From a virus, in the IMG/VR virus record IMGVR_UViG_3300036785_000717, positions 1 to 52,354 of that record: DNA of 52,354 nt; one strand, 5' to 3'. Each line of letters starts with the position of its first letter. Position 1 is the stretch's first letter. The translations under genes were made by a program, and so were the position numbers. This document shows, one piece after another, positions 615-5,755 of this stretch. A model generated the notes under the pieces. That model did not search any database. It was not told where the DNA came from and saw nothing but the letters and a program-made list of their open reading frames with translations.

Positions 615-736
615 TCCGGCTGCTGGCCGCGCTGCTGGCGCTCTCCCTGGGGGCCTGCACCATCATGCTCGACCAGAACGTGACGCGGCCGGCGTGCCCG
701 AACACGGATCATCGCGGCGACTTGACATCGAAGTAA
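611..736 (+). CDS. small lipoprotein, possibly Rz1-like outer spanin
   Basis: A 41-codon GTG-initiated frame that overlaps the previous stop. It encodes a short hydrophobic leader (VIRLLAALLALSLGAC) ending in a good lipobox, LGAC, so the mature peptide would be a 26-residue lipoprotein starting at Cys16. Small lipoproteins of this kind in phages are often outer-membrane spanins, but no overlapping inner spanin gene is seen here, so lysis function is only a guess. Its last codons overlap an operator-like motif at 720-739, which weakens confidence in the exact 3' end. Confidence 0.55.
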   Translation: MIRLLAALLALSLGACTIMLDQNVTRPACPNTDHRGDLTSK

Positions 737-762
737 AGTCTCACTTGACAGTCTAGGAAAGT
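720..762 (+). promoter_or_regulatory. two tandem copies of the dispersed 20-bp operator/promoter motif
   Basis: Copy one (720-739) is ACTTGACATCGAAGTAAAGT and copy two (743-762) is ACTTGACAGTCTAGGAAAGT, 3 bases apart and in the same orientation. They match the motif at the repressor/Cro-like interval (46763). Each contains a TTGACA that could be a -35 box, but no clear -10 follows at 16-18 bases. They sit directly before the accessory cassette. A hairpin (GTGGCC 761-766 with GGCCAC 774-779) abuts the next start codon. Confidence 0.65.
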
Positions 763-779
763 GGCCGCCAACTGGCCAC

Positions 780-1736
780 ATGACGCACGATCCTTTCAGG
801 GTCGAACCTCCGGCGCTCATCTCGTTCTCGGGCGGGCGCACGTCCGCCTACATGCTCCGCCGCATCCTCCAGGCCTACGACGGCGAACTGCCGGACGGCG
901 TCGTCGTGCAGTTCTCCAACACCGGCAAGGAACGCGCCGAGACCCTGCGCTTCGTGCATGAGTGCGGCGCGCGCTGGGGCGTCGAGATCCACTGGCTGGA
1001 GTGGCGCCCGAGGCCGGCGGACGTCGGCAAGCGCGAGACCTTCAAGGCCTGGCTCGCCGCCGATCCGGCCCGCGCCGCCCTGGTCTGCGACGAGGGGTTC
1101 GCCGAAGTCGGCCTCAACAGCGCCTCGCGGCGCGGCGAGCCGTTCCTGGCGCTGATCGCCATGCGCCAGTACGCGCCCAACGCCGTCACCCGGTTCTGTT
1201 CAGTCACCTTGAAAGTCAAAACGGCGCAGCGCTTCGCCCAGCGGGCGCTCGGCTGGAAGCACTGGAACAACGTCGTCGGCCTGCGCCACGACGAGGGCCA
1301 CCGCATCTTCAAGATGCTGGCGCGCAACGACGCCAACAAGGAGCCGTTCAAGGCGACCGCGCCACTCGGCGCGGCGAAGATCACCAAGCGCGACGTGCTG
1401 GCGTTCTGGTGGGGCGAGGGTCGCCACTTCGACACCCGGCAGGCGCCGCAGGGCTTCGATCTGGATCTGCGCGACTACGAGGGCAACTGCGACCTCTGCT
1501 TCCTGAAGAGCCGCGCCAAGAAGACCACCATCATCCGCGAGCACCCGGAGACGGCGGGCTGGTGGATCGACGCCGAGGTGCTGGCGCGCCAGAAGGCGAC
1601 CGGCCGGGGCGGGCGGTTCGTGACCGAGTACGGCTACGCCGAGCTCCAGGCCGACGCCCGCAGCCAGGCGGTCTTCGACTTCGGCGAGGACGATGACCAC
1701 GACGTCGAGTGCGGCCTGCACTGCGAGCCGGCGTGA
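780..1736 (+). CDS. PAPS reductase-like adenine nucleotide alpha-hydrolase family protein
   Basis: A 318-residue protein. Near the N-terminus it has the PP-loop SFSGGRTS (residues 15-22), which in PAPS reductases, ATP sulfurylases and DndC-like proteins binds ATP or PAPS pyrophosphate. A C-x2-C pair at Cys237 and Cys240 (GNCDLCFLKS) could bind metal or a cluster. Phage members are usually labelled phosphoadenosine phosphosulfate reductase, although assimilatory sulfate reduction is an unlikely role in a phage. The stop codon overlaps the start of a DNA methyltransferase gene, so a nucleic-acid modification or anti-defence role is plausible. Substrate is unknown. Confidence 0.8.
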   Translation: MTHDPFRVEPPALISFSGGRTSAYMLRRILQAYDGELPDGVVVQFSNTGKERAETLRFVHECGARWGVEIHWLEWRPRPADVGKRETFKAWLAADPARAALVCDEGFAEVGLNSASRRGEPFLALIAMRQYAPNAVTRFCSVTLKVKTAQRFAQRALGWKHWNNVVGLRHDEGHRIFKMLARNDANKEPFKATAPLGAAKITKRDVLAFWWGEGRHFDTRQAPQGFDLDLRDYEGNCDLCFLKSRAKKTTIIREHPETAGWWIDAEVLARQKATGRGGRFVTEYGYAELQADARSQAVFDFGEDDDHDVECGLHCEPA

Positions 1737-3613
1737 TGATCACCTACGGCAGCGTTTGCAGCGGGATCGAGGCAGCGTCGAAGAGCCGCCCTGGCCTATC
1801 TAGCGGTGGCGGGCTGATGCGCTACCTCTCCATGTTCAGCGGCATCGAGGGCGCCAGCCAGGCCTGGGTTCCACTTGGGTGGACGCCAGTCGGTGTCTGC
1901 GAGATCGAGGCGTTCCCGCGAGCGGTCCTCGCCCATCACTACCCCGAGGTTCCCAACCTAGGGGACGTGTCCAAGATCACCGAGGGAGACATCCGTAGAC
2001 TTGGCCGGGTCGATCTGATCGTCGGCGGCTTTCCCTGCCAGGATGTGTCTATCGCCGGGAAGCGAAAGGGTCTGAAGAACGATGACGACACCCTCACGCG
2101 AAGCGGACTGTTCTTTGAGGCAATGCGACTTGTTCGCATCGCCCGAGAACATTGTGGCCTTCGATGGCTCGTCATCGAAAACGTCCCTGGGTTATACTCA
2201 AGCAACCAGGGACGAGACTTTGCTGCGGTGGTTAGTGAGGTCGTTGGATGCGGCTTTGACGTTCCACGAGGTGGCTGGGAAAACAGCGGTTGTGCAGCCG
2301 GCCCGGACGGGTTCGTCGAATGGGCTACTCTGGATGCGCAATTCTGGGGACTGGCGCAACGGCGCAAGCGTGTGTTCTTTGTCGTCGACTTTGGAGACTG
2401 GGCCAGTCGATCCCCGGTACTTCTTGAGCGCGACAGCCTGCAAGGGGATCCTGCGCCGCGCCGCCAAGCGCAACAAAGAGCTACCCCCGCAGCTGGCGCA
2501 GGCGCTGCGGCAGGCGGCGGGGAGCCTGAACTCTTCAAGGCCCTGATGACGCCCTCGGGGGGGATCGACCGCGAGGACCGGCACACCCTCATCGTCGGCG
2601 ACGACGCCGCCCCGGCCCTGACCGCTGCAGGGGGCACGGAGCGCAAGCACGGCCAGGGGTGGGGGCAGCGGGAGTACGAGCAGCCCGGCTTCCTGCAGGT
2701 CGCCTACGGCGGCAACCGCACCGGGGGCCCCATCGACGTCGCGACTGCGATGCGCGCCAAGGGCGGCACGGGCCACGGCGACTTCGAGAGCGAGACGTTC
2801 ATCGCCCACAGCCTGACCGCCGACGGGTTCGACGCCAGCGAGGACGGCAGCGGGCGCGGCACGCCGCTGATCGCCTGGCCCCTCGTCGCCGACCCGGTGA
2901 CCGCCGTCGAGGGCAAGACCTACACCCACGAGGGCAAGAACAACTTCCGCCTGCACAACGTGGTCGAACACCCCGTGTTCACCCTCGCCGCGAGGGGGCG
3001 CGACGGTAGCCCGCAGCTGGAGTTCCGCGATGATGAACTCGCCAACGCCATCCTGACGCCCAGCGGCGGGCGCGCCGGCATCGGCGTCGGCGCCGTGGCC
3101 ATCGGCATCACCCTGCACGGCAGCGATGGAACGAGGAGCACCGCGACCGAAACGGAGACCGCGAGTTCGCTCCGCGCCCGCCCGCCAGGCGGGATCGACA
3201 ACTGCACCACGACGGCGGTGCTGGCCTTCACCGCCAAAGACCACGGCGCGGACGCGGACGAGGAGGTGGCGCCGACGCTGCGGGCGGGCGGCCACGACAA
3301 GAGCCATGCGAACGCAGGCGTGATGCCGGCGGTGGCGACAAGCCAGACGGGAGAAGGCGCAGGCCTCCTGAGAAAGGAGGTTGGGGTCAGTGCGGTTCGT
3401 CGTCTGACCCCACGAATACGGGAATGTTGCAGATTGCAGGGCTACCCCGACGACTATCTGGACATCGAGTTCCGCGGCAAGCCGGCGGCGGACGGGCCGA
3501 AGTACAAGGCGCTGGGGAATGCCTTCGCGACCCCCGTTGTTCGTTATATCGGCGAGCGGATCGCGGCCTGCTGCGGCAATGCGCGCCTTGCCGAACCGAC
3601 GGCCGAACGGTAA
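1736..3613 (+). CDS. DNA cytosine-5 methyltransferase, mosaic gene
   Basis: C5-methyltransferase motifs are in order: motif I FSGIEGASQ, motif IV GGFPCQDVSIAG (catalytic Cys near residue 74 counted from the ATG at 1817), motif VI ENVPGL, motif VIII QRRKRVFFV, a long variable target-recognition region, and motif X LGNAFATPVVRYI at the C-terminus. It transfers a methyl group from SAM to cytosine in a recognition sequence, probably to protect phage DNA. Two starts are possible. The ATG at 1736 overlaps the previous stop and adds 27 residues containing a second motif I-like start (YGSVCSGIEAAS). The ATG at 1817 gives a normal 598-residue enzyme. Base composition changes sharply inside the gene, suggesting recombination. 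Confidence 0.92.
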   Translation: MITYGSVCSGIEAASKSRPGLSSGGGLMRYLSMFSGIEGASQAWVPLGWTPVGVCEIEAFPRAVLAHHYPEVPNLGDVSKITEGDIRRLGRVDLIVGGFPCQDVSIAGKRKGLKNDDDTLTRSGLFFEAMRLVRIAREHCGLRWLVIENVPGLYSSNQGRDFAAVVSEVVGCGFDVPRGGWENSGCAAGPDGFVEWATLDAQFWGLAQRRKRVFFVVDFGDWASRSPVLLERDSLQGDPAPRRQAQQRATPAAGAGAAAGGGEPELFKALMTPSGGIDREDRHTLIVGDDAAPALTAAGGTERKHGQGWGQREYEQPGFLQVAYGGNRTGGPIDVATAMRAKGGTGHGDFESETFIAHSLTADGFDASEDGSGRGTPLIAWPLVADPVTAVEGKTYTHEGKNNFRLHNVVEHPVFTLAARGRDGSPQLEFRDDELANAILTPSGGRAGIGVGAVAIGITLHGSDGTRSTATETETASSLRARPPGGIDNCTTTAVLAFTAKDHGADADEEVAPTLRAGGHDKSHANAGVMPAVATSQTGEGAGLLRKEVGVSAVRRLTPRIRECCRLQGYPDDYLDIEFRGKPAADGPKYKALGNAFATPVVRYIGERIAACCGNARLAEPTAER

Positions 3614-3619
3614 TGGTCT

Positions 3620-3653
3620 GAGGGTCAAGGAAGCGGCACGGGCCGCGACCCTC
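3620..3653. promoter_or_regulatory. strong hairpin in the leader of the GHKL ATPase gene
   Basis: GAGGGTC (3620-3626) pairs with GACCCTC (3647-3653), and an inner GCGGC/GCCGC stem closes on a 4-base loop. It starts 7 bases after the methyltransferase stop and ends 15 bases before the next ATG, just ahead of the AAAGGGA ribosome site. No U-tract follows, so attenuation, RNA processing or translational control is likelier than a simple terminator. Confidence 0.5.
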
Positions 3654-3668
3654 AAAGGGAAAGAACCC

Positions 3669-5567
3669 ATGAAAACCAAGCCTGAAACCCGCGCTTTCAA
3701 GATCCACCCGCAGCTGCTGTTCGACGTCATCCAGCGGCAGGCCGGGACGCTGACCAAGGCGCTCTGCGAAGGCGTGATGAACTCCATCGACGCCGGGGCG
3801 ACCAAGGTCGAGGTCGAACTCTACGCCAACGCCGCCCGCATCCGCGACGACGGCAAAGGCTTCCCCACCCGCGAGAGCATCGAACTGTTCTTCGAAACCT
3901 TCGGCCAGCCGCACACGGCGGGCGACGCCGTCTACGGCACGTTCCGCATGGGGCGCGGCCAAATGTTCAGCTTCGGCGTCAACGAGTGGTGCTCTGGCCG
4001 CTTTGAGATGAAGGTCGATATCAAGGGGCGCGGCCTCGACTACGAACTGACGGAGAAAAAGGGCGATGAGCAGGCTGGCTGCGACATCGCCATCGATCTC
4101 TACAAGCCGCTGTCCTTGCTGGAGCAGCGCGGCATCGCCGACGATCTGCGCCGCATGGTGCGCTACGTCGATGTCCCCGTGCTGCTGAACGGCGAGCAGA
4201 TCAACAAGATCGCCGCCCGCGAGACGTGGGACTTCGAAGACGAGTATGCCTACTACAGGTTGGGCCAAGGGCGCCTCGCCATCTACAACTTGGGCGTCTT
4301 CGTCAACGACAGCCGCGCCTACAACCTTGGCATCGGCGGCACTGTGGTCGCCAAGAAGCAGCTTCGCCTGAACTTCGCGCGCAACGACGTGCTGAACGAC
4401 TGCACCGTCTGGCAGAAGATCGCCAAGGTGCTGCGCGCCCGCGCCGACAACAATATCAAGGCCAAGCGCGGCGCCCTCTCCGCTGAGGAGCGCGCTCTGC
4501 TCGCGCAGCGCCTGCGCTCTGGCGACCTGACCAGAACGGAGCGCGCTCACGCAGCGGTGTTTCAGGACGTCTCAGGCCGCTGGCTGACCCTCGACAAACT
4601 GCTAAGCGCCCTCATCGGCTGCAACCACACGCTCAGCGTCGGCCCCAAGTCTCCGCGCGCGGAGAAGGTGCAGCGGGCGAAGCTGGCGGTCGTCCTCAAC
4701 GAGGCGCTGCTGGACGAGTTCTTCCGCGTCGATACGCTGGATGCGCTGGTGGCCAAGGTCATCAAGCCCAACGTGCGTTTCTGGCCCGCCGACATCAAGA
4801 CGGCGCCGCTGTCGGCGTTCGCGCCCGACGAGGGCGAACGCTACGAGATCATCCCGCCGCAGGCCTACACACCTGCCGAGGCGATCATCCTTGAGGTCTG
4901 CAACACCCTGTCCGCGCCCGACTTCGCGCGGGAGCGCAGGATCGTGTTGGGCGACGCCGACAATGCCGATGGCTGGACCGACGGCGCCTCCTACATCGCC
5001 ATCGGACGGTCTTTCCTGAAGGGCCGCGACATCGCCTCGCCCGCGACGTGGACCGCCATCGCGCTGCTGCTCTGCCATGAGTACAGCCACGGCGGCGGGT
5101 CCAACGGCTCGACGCACGTCCACTCGCCTGAATTCCACGAGCAGTACCACGACGGCAGCGTCACGGCGGTTCCCCAGTGGATCGGCGAGGCGCTGAAGGC
5201 GGTGCGCGAGGCGGTCGAAAAGACCACGGCGCGCGTCAACAGGGACGCCCTGCGGTGGCTGGACAGGATCGACGCGGCGGCCAAGGCGCCAGCGGCGCTG
5301 GAGGGGGCGCTGATGGCCGCGCGCGCCAAGCACGGGCGCGCCGCGCCCAAGACGGCACCCAAGGCGACAGGCGGCAGCTACGCCACCATCCTGACCGCGC
5401 AAGGCTACAGCCGCGATCAGAAGGCGCCTGCGGGCCACCAACTGTGGGTCAAGGCGAACGCGTGCTGCCTGATCGACACCAAGAACGGCAAGTGGACGCT
5501 CACCCGCGCGGGTCAGGAGAAGACGGGCCGTCTGACGCCGTCGCTGGCCAAGGTCTTTGAAGGATGA
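3669..5567 (+). CDS. GHKL-family ATPase fused to a zincin-like metal-binding region
   Basis: A 632-residue protein. The N-terminus has the GHKL (gyrase, Hsp90, histidine kinase, MutL) ATP-binding motifs: E34-x3-N38-x2-D41 in EGVMNSIDAGA, DDGKGF at 60-65, and GTFRMGRGQ near 90-98. Around residues 470-490 it has HEYSHGGG followed by THVHSPEFHE, which resembles the HExxH...H metal site of SprT-like or other small zincins. The C-terminal 70 residues look like a separate small domain. The ATG at 3669 follows AAAGGGA at good spacing. T4 rIIA and MORC-like proteins are other GHKL proteins in phage or defence contexts, but I cannot assign this one. It is coupled to the next gene by an ATGA overlap. 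Confidence 0.8.
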   Translation: MKTKPETRAFKIHPQLLFDVIQRQAGTLTKALCEGVMNSIDAGATKVEVELYANAARIRDDGKGFPTRESIELFFETFGQPHTAGDAVYGTFRMGRGQMFSFGVNEWCSGRFEMKVDIKGRGLDYELTEKKGDEQAGCDIAIDLYKPLSLLEQRGIADDLRRMVRYVDVPVLLNGEQINKIAARETWDFEDEYAYYRLGQGRLAIYNLGVFVNDSRAYNLGIGGTVVAKKQLRLNFARNDVLNDCTVWQKIAKVLRARADNNIKAKRGALSAEERALLAQRLRSGDLTRTERAHAAVFQDVSGRWLTLDKLLSALIGCNHTLSVGPKSPRAEKVQRAKLAVVLNEALLDEFFRVDTLDALVAKVIKPNVRFWPADIKTAPLSAFAPDEGERYEIIPPQAYTPAEAIILEVCNTLSAPDFARERRIVLGDADNADGWTDGASYIAIGRSFLKGRDIASPATWTAIALLLCHEYSHGGGSNGSTHVHSPEFHEQYHDGSVTAVPQWIGEALKAVREAVEKTTARVNRDALRWLDRIDAAAKAPAALEGALMAARAKHGRAAPKTAPKATGGSYATILTAQGYSRDQKAPAGHQLWVKANACCLIDTKNGKWTLTRAGQEKTGRLTPSLAKVFEG

Positions 5568-5755
5568 ACGAGCGCGCCTGCCTCGACATCCCCGGTGACG
5601 CCGAGGGCGGTCGCCTCGTGGTGGTCGCCGACTACCTGAAGTCCGTGGACAGGAGCCTCTGGAGCGCCGTCCTGACCACGCTGGCGCAGGGGCGCCCGTA
5701 CCGCAGCATCAACGGCGCATGGTCGCTGACCCCGCTGAAGGAGAGTGCTGAATAA
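5564..5755 (+). CDS. small protein of unknown function
   Basis: A 63-residue protein overlapping the GHKL ATPase stop by four bases (ATGA), so translation is probably coupled. It has one likely amphipathic helix (VVVADYLKSVDRSLWSAVL) and no Cys, membrane segment or motif I recognise. The tight coupling suggests it is made together with the ATPase. Confidence 0.65.
   Translation: MNERACLDIPGDAEGGRLVVVADYLKSVDRSLWSAVLTTLAQGRPYRSINGAWSLTPLKESAE

Follow-up and report, generated by a model that had tools for sequence, protein, structure and literature searches.

A modular, putatively multispecific C5-cytosine methyltransferase between two accessory genes of a probable temperate phage

Three adjacent genes of a probable temperate phage

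The DNA analyzed here is IMG/VR virus record IMGVR_UViG_3300036785_000717, taken as one stretch of 52,354 nucleotides (positions 1 to 52,354, here referred to as the window). Because it carries an integrase gene, a ParB-like gene and a primase-helicase gene, the window probably represents a temperate phage. Three open reading frames on the + strand encode a phosphoadenosine phosphosulfate (PAPS)-reductase-like protein (780-1736), a C5-cytosine DNA methyltransferase (1736-3613) and a protein with a GHKL ATPase and a zincin-like domain (3669-5567). A first-pass annotation had described these genes as adjacent and co-directional and had proposed that they form one combined DNA-modification or anti-defense cassette. 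Open reading frame calls, PHROG and Pfam bore out the adjacency, the shared direction and the domains as named. The methyltransferase also contains an array of small modules that the first-pass annotation missed and that was first noted in this analysis.

The methyltransferase carries a shuffled module array

The methyltransferase belongs to the C5 family by a PF00145 match above the cut-off, and an alignment places motifs I, IV (PCQ), VI (ENV), VIII, QRRKR, IX, X and GNA. AlphaFold2 modeled the catalytic core well, and IMG/VR holds more than 560 related methyltransferase loci. In C5-methyltransferases, the segment from motif VIII to motif IX is where targets are recognized, and in the window enzyme this region contains a row of modules resembling target-recognition domains (TRDs). 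The core, the region and the modules, some of them located by profile hidden Markov model (HMM), are as follows.

1817..3613, + strand: C5-cytosine DNA methyltransferase, 598-aa core protein (PF00145, E = 1.6e-37; dcm TIGR00675 above cut-off; M.HhaI among the PDB matches)
2378..3397, + strand: target-recognition region between motifs VIII and IX, 340 aa, holding the array (sequence)
2618..2680, + strand: TRD-like module h (profile HMM)
2735..2803, + strand: TRD-like module a (profile HMM; after h here, before h in related locus L003)
2807..2872, + strand: TRD-like module b (ADGFDASEDGTGRGTPL; pN/pS, the ratio of nonsynonymous to synonymous differences, 0.23 over 257 pairs)
2888..2965, + strand: TRD-like module c (also in L040, L050 and L067)
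2978..3100, + strand: TRD-like module d (sole module of the minimal enzyme L037)
3221..3334, + strand: TRD-like module e (APTLRAGGHDKSHANAG; profile HMM)

Modules of this kind are about 20 to 45 aa long, and their number and order vary among many phage C5-methyltransferases; in 83 family members the region between motifs VIII and IX ranges from 83 to 530 aa. The window array reads h-a-b-c-d-e and thus holds at least six modules, perhaps seven or eight. The order is a-h-i-b-d-f-j-e-q-g in L003, h-l-i-b-j-b-e-p-q-d-k-g-o in L001 and l-m-b-e-f-g-d in the seven-module enzyme of the isolated Caulobacter phage DMCA (XIJ71596.1). Module seeds were drawn from these four proteins, and coverage is highest in them. 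In total, 26 module-type pairs were seen in both orders. A search with the whole array among named phages and plasmids returned few matches, probably because the modules are shuffled.

Many modules share an AxTLxA core, which occurs 48 times in 81 regions compared with 2.3 +/- 1.5 times in shuffled sequence. The M.HhaI segment AITLSAYGGG, which resembles this core and precedes motif IX in that enzyme, was aligned by phmmer with the end of the array, just ahead of motif IX. The window enzyme thus resembles M.HhaI-type enzymes in this element and in having all catalytic motifs; M.HhaI has one TRD, whereas the window enzyme has an array in its 340-aa region.

The smallest enzymes of the family hold about one module. 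L037, with 353 aa in total, contains module d alone, and this copy shares 73 to 83% identity with module d as it occurs in the L001, L003 and window arrays. Since the lone module sits in the TRD position, module d would be the TRD of L037, and the copies in the arrays are best read as TRDs as well. Between the window and L001, module d is 88% identical in amino acids and 89% in nucleotides, compared with 49% and 61% for the cores, and the difference at the nucleotide level (89% versus 61%) indicates exchange for this pair.

Alternatively, slippage and recombination may have expanded a low-information, disordered linker that plays no part in target choice, the enzyme's single specificity coming from the one module beside motif IX. 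A Gly-rich composition and the continuous length range given above would fit such a linker, as would the low AlphaFold2 confidence across the array (predicted local distance difference test score [pLDDT], 23-33). It is harder to reconcile with modules whose amino acids are conserved although many synonymous sites differ, with the presence of the same modules in distant enzymes in other orders, and with a one-module enzyme that uses a module found mid-array elsewhere. The pN/pS of the modules is 0.04-0.40, mostly 0.2-0.4 with pS of 0.5-0.8, and the modules look conserved by selection at the amino-acid level; these ratios are biased low, as pairs at least 50% identical were required and module matches came from profiles. 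On balance, we consider the linker explanation unlikely.

A predicted multispecific, anti-restriction enzyme

We favor the reading that the three genes are neighboring accessory genes of a temperate phage and do not make up one system, and that the methyltransferase array reads several targets in the service of anti-restriction, with a probability of roughly two in three. The enzyme would be an orphan C5-methyltransferase in which one catalytic domain is joined to a row of small, interchangeable modules at the TRD site. Each module would read a different short DNA target, allowing one enzyme to methylate several sequences and so to protect the phage DNA against several restriction enzymes. The set of targets would then change whenever recombination added, removed or rearranged modules.

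Several points weigh against this reading, beginning with the bias in pN/pS noted above. Module identity is not higher than core identity as a rule (medians of 0.64 and 0.61 over 1,125 module pairs), and recent module exchange is thus indicated for some pairs, not generally. The pLDDT of 23-33 fits disorder too, although the alignment used for the prediction had just 8 rows, which do not align across the array; as a model, the predicted array neither supports nor refutes TRD folds. Motif IX contains a 2-residue insertion (window 3397-3425, RRLTPRIREC compared with RRL-(T/L)-(P/L)-x-EC in aligned relatives). This change (LTPRIREC for LTPxEC) might weaken the enzyme, or it may be a sequence error. 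Finally, the target-reading role of every module is drawn from sequence.

To our knowledge, such TRD arrays have been described so far only as small arrays in Bacillus phages. No large TRD arrays in proteobacterial phages were found in the literature searched, with most subscription papers outside the reach of that search. In Bacillus temperate phages, several TRDs are arrayed in one polypeptide and protect against many restriction-modification systems (PMC12707154). The window enzyme resembles these methyltransferases (M.SPRI, M.phi3TI and kin) as an orphan phage C5-methyltransferase with several modules, here predicted TRDs, between motifs VIII and IX of one core. It differs from them in belonging to proteobacterial phages and in having more and smaller modules (about six in the window and up to about 13 in L001), which are shuffled and common to many phages; the likeness is one of architecture, with the TRD role here assigned from sequence.

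More tentatively, proteobacterial phages may share a shuffled pool of small C5-methyltransferase TRD modules, yielding enzymes with about 1 to 13 specificities and a general means of anti-restriction that can be rapidly re-programmed. If the modules read targets independently, these phages would hold a large natural library of specificity modules of about 40 aa for C5-methyltransferases. They would match host restriction by module exchange and not by new genes. The one-module enzymes would then be ready test objects, and the seven-module enzyme of DMCA makes the idea testable.

Two further observations concern related methyltransferases. At L039:5851-7811, an array-type methyltransferase is split over two overlapping frames and is a frameshifted or broken copy. 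Matches to the array on Pantoea plasmids (H67, H68, H71, H72 and H75) fall under genes named as Dam-family adenine methyltransferases; these are possible C5/N6 fusion enzymes or carry wrong names.

The three genes do not recur together

We gathered 95 PAPS-like, 89 methyltransferase and 17 GHKL loci and searched all of them with profiles. No relative among them has all three genes, and none of the 17 GHKL loci has the PAPS-like gene. Likewise, none of the 37 PAPS-bearing records of at least 20 kb has a GHKL gene anywhere, and the PAPS-like gene is present in none of 5 GHKL phage records, although several records are fragments and such empty answers are weak without a positive control. By profile, GHKL and methyltransferase genes occur together once, 3 kb apart in L001. 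There, the GHKL protein is 77% identical to that of the window and the methyltransferase core is 49% identical, and the two genes were therefore not inherited together.

The first-pass annotation had suggested a search for joint recurrence and had held that rare co-occurrence would speak against a single cassette; the search returned no joint occurrence, and the joint three-gene anti-defense system is not supported. That the genes adjoin and share a direction in the window speaks for a cassette, as does the recurrence of PAPS-methyltransferase pairs. There is also a precedent for a PP-loop protein with a GHKL protein in host defense, in a bacterial SspBCD-type locus in which a GHKL gene follows that for SspD. 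The GHKL protein of that host locus differs in domain layout, however, and in L003 an endonuclease gene separates the PAPS-like and methyltransferase genes, which no GHKL gene accompanies. Together with the co-occurrence counts, on which the three-gene cassette was rejected as a candidate, these differences make a single cassette highly improbable.

A more limited possibility is that the PAPS-like protein and the methyltransferase form a functional unit, in which the methylated DNA is also a substrate of the PP-loop enzyme (for a phosphorothioate-like change or base thiolation) or this enzyme supplies sulfur or S-adenosylmethionine for methylation. Both genes are present in 27 of the 95 PAPS-like loci. 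In 23 of the 95 they lie within 500 bp, always on the same strand, and pairs span 7 of 40 PAPS-like clusters (65% identity clustering) in both gene orders. The PAPS-like protein is homologous to SspD and shares its Cys layout, which would suit such a unit, and in Sinorhizobium prophages SspD-like and type II methyltransferase genes occur in the same prophages (PMC12429752). Most PAPS-like genes nevertheless lack a nearby C5-methyltransferase; among the 37 larger PAPS-bearing records, 16 hold one and 21 hold none. In addition, no SspA, SspB or SspC partners were seen beside the gene, and shared residence in an early region may explain part of the association, whose strength is uncertain as the adjacency control, made with the phage primase-helicase, gave one relative. 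We therefore regard a functional pair as very unlikely.

Part of the first-pass interpretation survives. The PAPS-like and methyltransferase genes are recurrent close neighbors, and both point to DNA modification because of the SspD homology of the one and the multispecific-type architecture of the other. An anti-defense role is plausible for each gene on its own.

The PAPS-like protein is closer to SspD than to CysH

780..1736, + strand: PAPS-reductase-like/NinC-like PP-loop protein, 318 aa (SGGRTS loop, RFC...K, CxxC and C-terminal ECGLHC)

The PAPS-like protein matched PHROG 424, "phosphoadenosine phosphosulfate reductase" (E = 1.8e-38), and scored 17.4 bits with Pfam PAPS_reduct, below the cut-off of 22.5. 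It also matched the PADLOC SspD model (1.1e-9), as did 9 of 9 members of its profile, and hhalign aligned that profile with SspD from a Piscinibacter genome (probability, 98.3; E = 1.3e-14). The Piscinibacter gene adjoins a DUF4007 gene and a large ATPase-like gene. Across the phage family the Cys layout is conserved, with RFC...K in 86, CxxC in 95 and a C-terminal Cys tail in 91 of 96 proteins. The tail is ECGLHC in the window and ECGxxC, CFCGD or CFCHD elsewhere, comparable to the CLVC end of an SspD.

The window protein thus shares with SspD/NinC-type proteins a homologous PP-loop domain, RFC/RWC...K, CxxC and a C-terminal Cys pair, the cysteines being of iron-sulfur type. It differs from SspD in its tail (ECGLHC compared with ACLVCHK) and in that many phages carry the gene without Ssp partners. 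No SspB (DUF4007), SspC (ATPase), SspA or cysteine desulfurase was found among the neighboring genes examined, the rest of the window being annotated in part. On these similarities, the protein would be an SspD/NinC-type PP-loop protein and probably an iron-sulfur enzyme; it may have a nucleic-acid substrate or take part in sulfur chemistry.

The database name and the wide reporting of phage cysH would instead suggest an ordinary assimilatory CysH, that is, an auxiliary metabolic gene, and the C-terminal ECGLH-like tail recalls the CysH active-site motif. With the PAPS_reduct score below the cut-off and no PDB chain, solved CysH included, matched by the 9-member profile at E <= 1, the CysH assignment was rejected; the match of all nine members to SspD and the intact SGGRTS loop of ATP-pyrophosphatase type also make it improbable. 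The homology places the protein nearer to SspD, which acts in phosphorothioation, than to CysH and sulfur assimilation. The label "cysH auxiliary metabolic gene" is accordingly doubtful here, and a nucleic-acid or iron-sulfur role is no less likely. Earlier papers have noted PAPS-reductase homologues in both phages and defense systems (PMC11437467; PMC12839542). The common "PAPS reductase" or phage cysH label is here attached to proteins whose nearest characterized relative found is a DNA phosphorothioation protein.

A bacterial locus seen in the course of this work (L211, G046:C9:95000-112000) is SspBCD-like: DUF4007, a large ATPase-like gene and SspD precede a gene whose product carries two HATPase domains. 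It also encodes a 657-aa protein that has no Pfam match and an N terminus (KNVLVVDDE) that recalls a response regulator. By its gene content, L211 would pair a phosphorothioation-type system with a GHKL protein.

The GHKL-zincin protein

3669..5567, + strand: GHKL (Hsp90/MutL-type) ATPase with a C-terminal zincin-like domain, 632 aa (HEYSH...HSPEF...HD at aa 470-495)

The start of this gene was set at ATG 3669, and not at the mechanical open reading frame start of 3519, on the basis of an alignment with relatives and of the A/G-rich stretch immediately before it. It lies about 55 nt past the methyltransferase stop, and the two genes do not overlap. An HATPase_c_3 match above the cut-off (E = 2e-7) and an HExxH motif agree with the description as a GHKL ATPase joined to a putative metallopeptidase domain, the second part being peptidase-like by motif. 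The pattern HExxH-(10 aa)-H-xxx-F-xxxx-H is invariant in 12 of 12 aligned proteins encoded by phages and by bacterial genomes, all of which share the ATPase motifs. The predicted structure (mean pLDDT, 79) matches Hsp90/TRAP1 in the PDB, and RIIA proteins dominate its viral fold matches; these matches most likely arise through the ATPase and transducer. The HExxH domain had no Pfam peptidase match, and its only PDB match, to proabylysin, was weak (E = 0.9). The HExxH with a downstream third ligand would suit a SprT/minigluzincin metallopeptidase, but SprT was set aside as an assignment of the zincin for want of a Pfam or strong PDB match.

Like T4 RIIA and Hsp90/MutL/MORC, the protein has an N-terminal GHKL ATPase and a transducer fold. 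T4 RIIA itself lacks HExxH, and with hhalign covering the ATPase only (probability, 12%), the likeness is limited to that domain and identity with T4 RIIA was rejected. No rIIB was recognized next door, where the following open reading frames encode 63 and 125 aa, the longer product matching no family. A MORC/paraMORC restriction-modification ATPase was also considered and rejected; the neighbors of 10 homologues do not fit a linkage to restriction-modification or helicase genes, and among them a C5-methyltransferase lies about 3 kb from GHKL in L023 and L001 only. The protein is most likely an ATP-driven clamp with a metallopeptidase-like domain, encoded by a gene that would move independently. 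RIIA orthologues are described as counter-defense proteins with variable C termini (PMC7824862), and by analogy the window protein is perhaps a counter-defense protein like T4 RIIA.

The junction at 1736 and the upstream repeats

1736..1816, + strand: 27-codon leader with a vestigial second motif I (MITYGSVCSGIEAAS), an apparent rearrangement junction (sequence; starts the methyltransferases of L001 and L017; not in L003)
720..762, + strand: two direct repeats of 20 nt each (ACTTGACA...AAAGT), 23 nt from start to start, 5' of the PAPS-like gene

The first-pass annotation had described the PAPS-like and methyltransferase genes as coupled at 1736. The overlap is real, in that the PAPS-like stop overlaps an ATG at 1736 (TGATG), but conservation of the coupling did not hold up. 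The conserved methyltransferase core starts at ATG 1817 (MRYLSMFSGIEGAS), and the broken motif I in the leader (MITYGSVCSGIEAAS) matches methyltransferase N termini in L001 (LTYGSVCSGIEGAS) and L017 (YGSVCSGIEAAT). In L003, the closest relative (83% identical in the PAPS-like protein and 73% in the methyltransferase core), an endonuclease VII gene (PF02945; L003:10200-10631) separates the two genes. Because the leader holds a broken motif I and L003 has a gene in between, the coupling looks like a local junction left by replacement or rearrangement, not a conserved trait. The vestigial motif I is fused in frame ahead of the real methyltransferase start, as a recombination scar from an L001/L017-type enzyme would be.

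Where the first-pass annotation placed two tandem operators ahead of the genes, two direct repeats are present, one copy at 720-739 and the other at 743-762. The orthologous PAPS-like gene of L003 is likewise preceded by a pair spaced 23 nt apart (L003:9128-9173), and the repeats are therefore called conserved; they are candidate operators. Finally, a small protein (RACLDIPGD...GGR) is encoded at 5564-5755 in the window, at L001:2517-2720 and near 1100 in L002. It is conserved and lies close to GHKL or methyltransferase genes, and its position varies among these three related phages.

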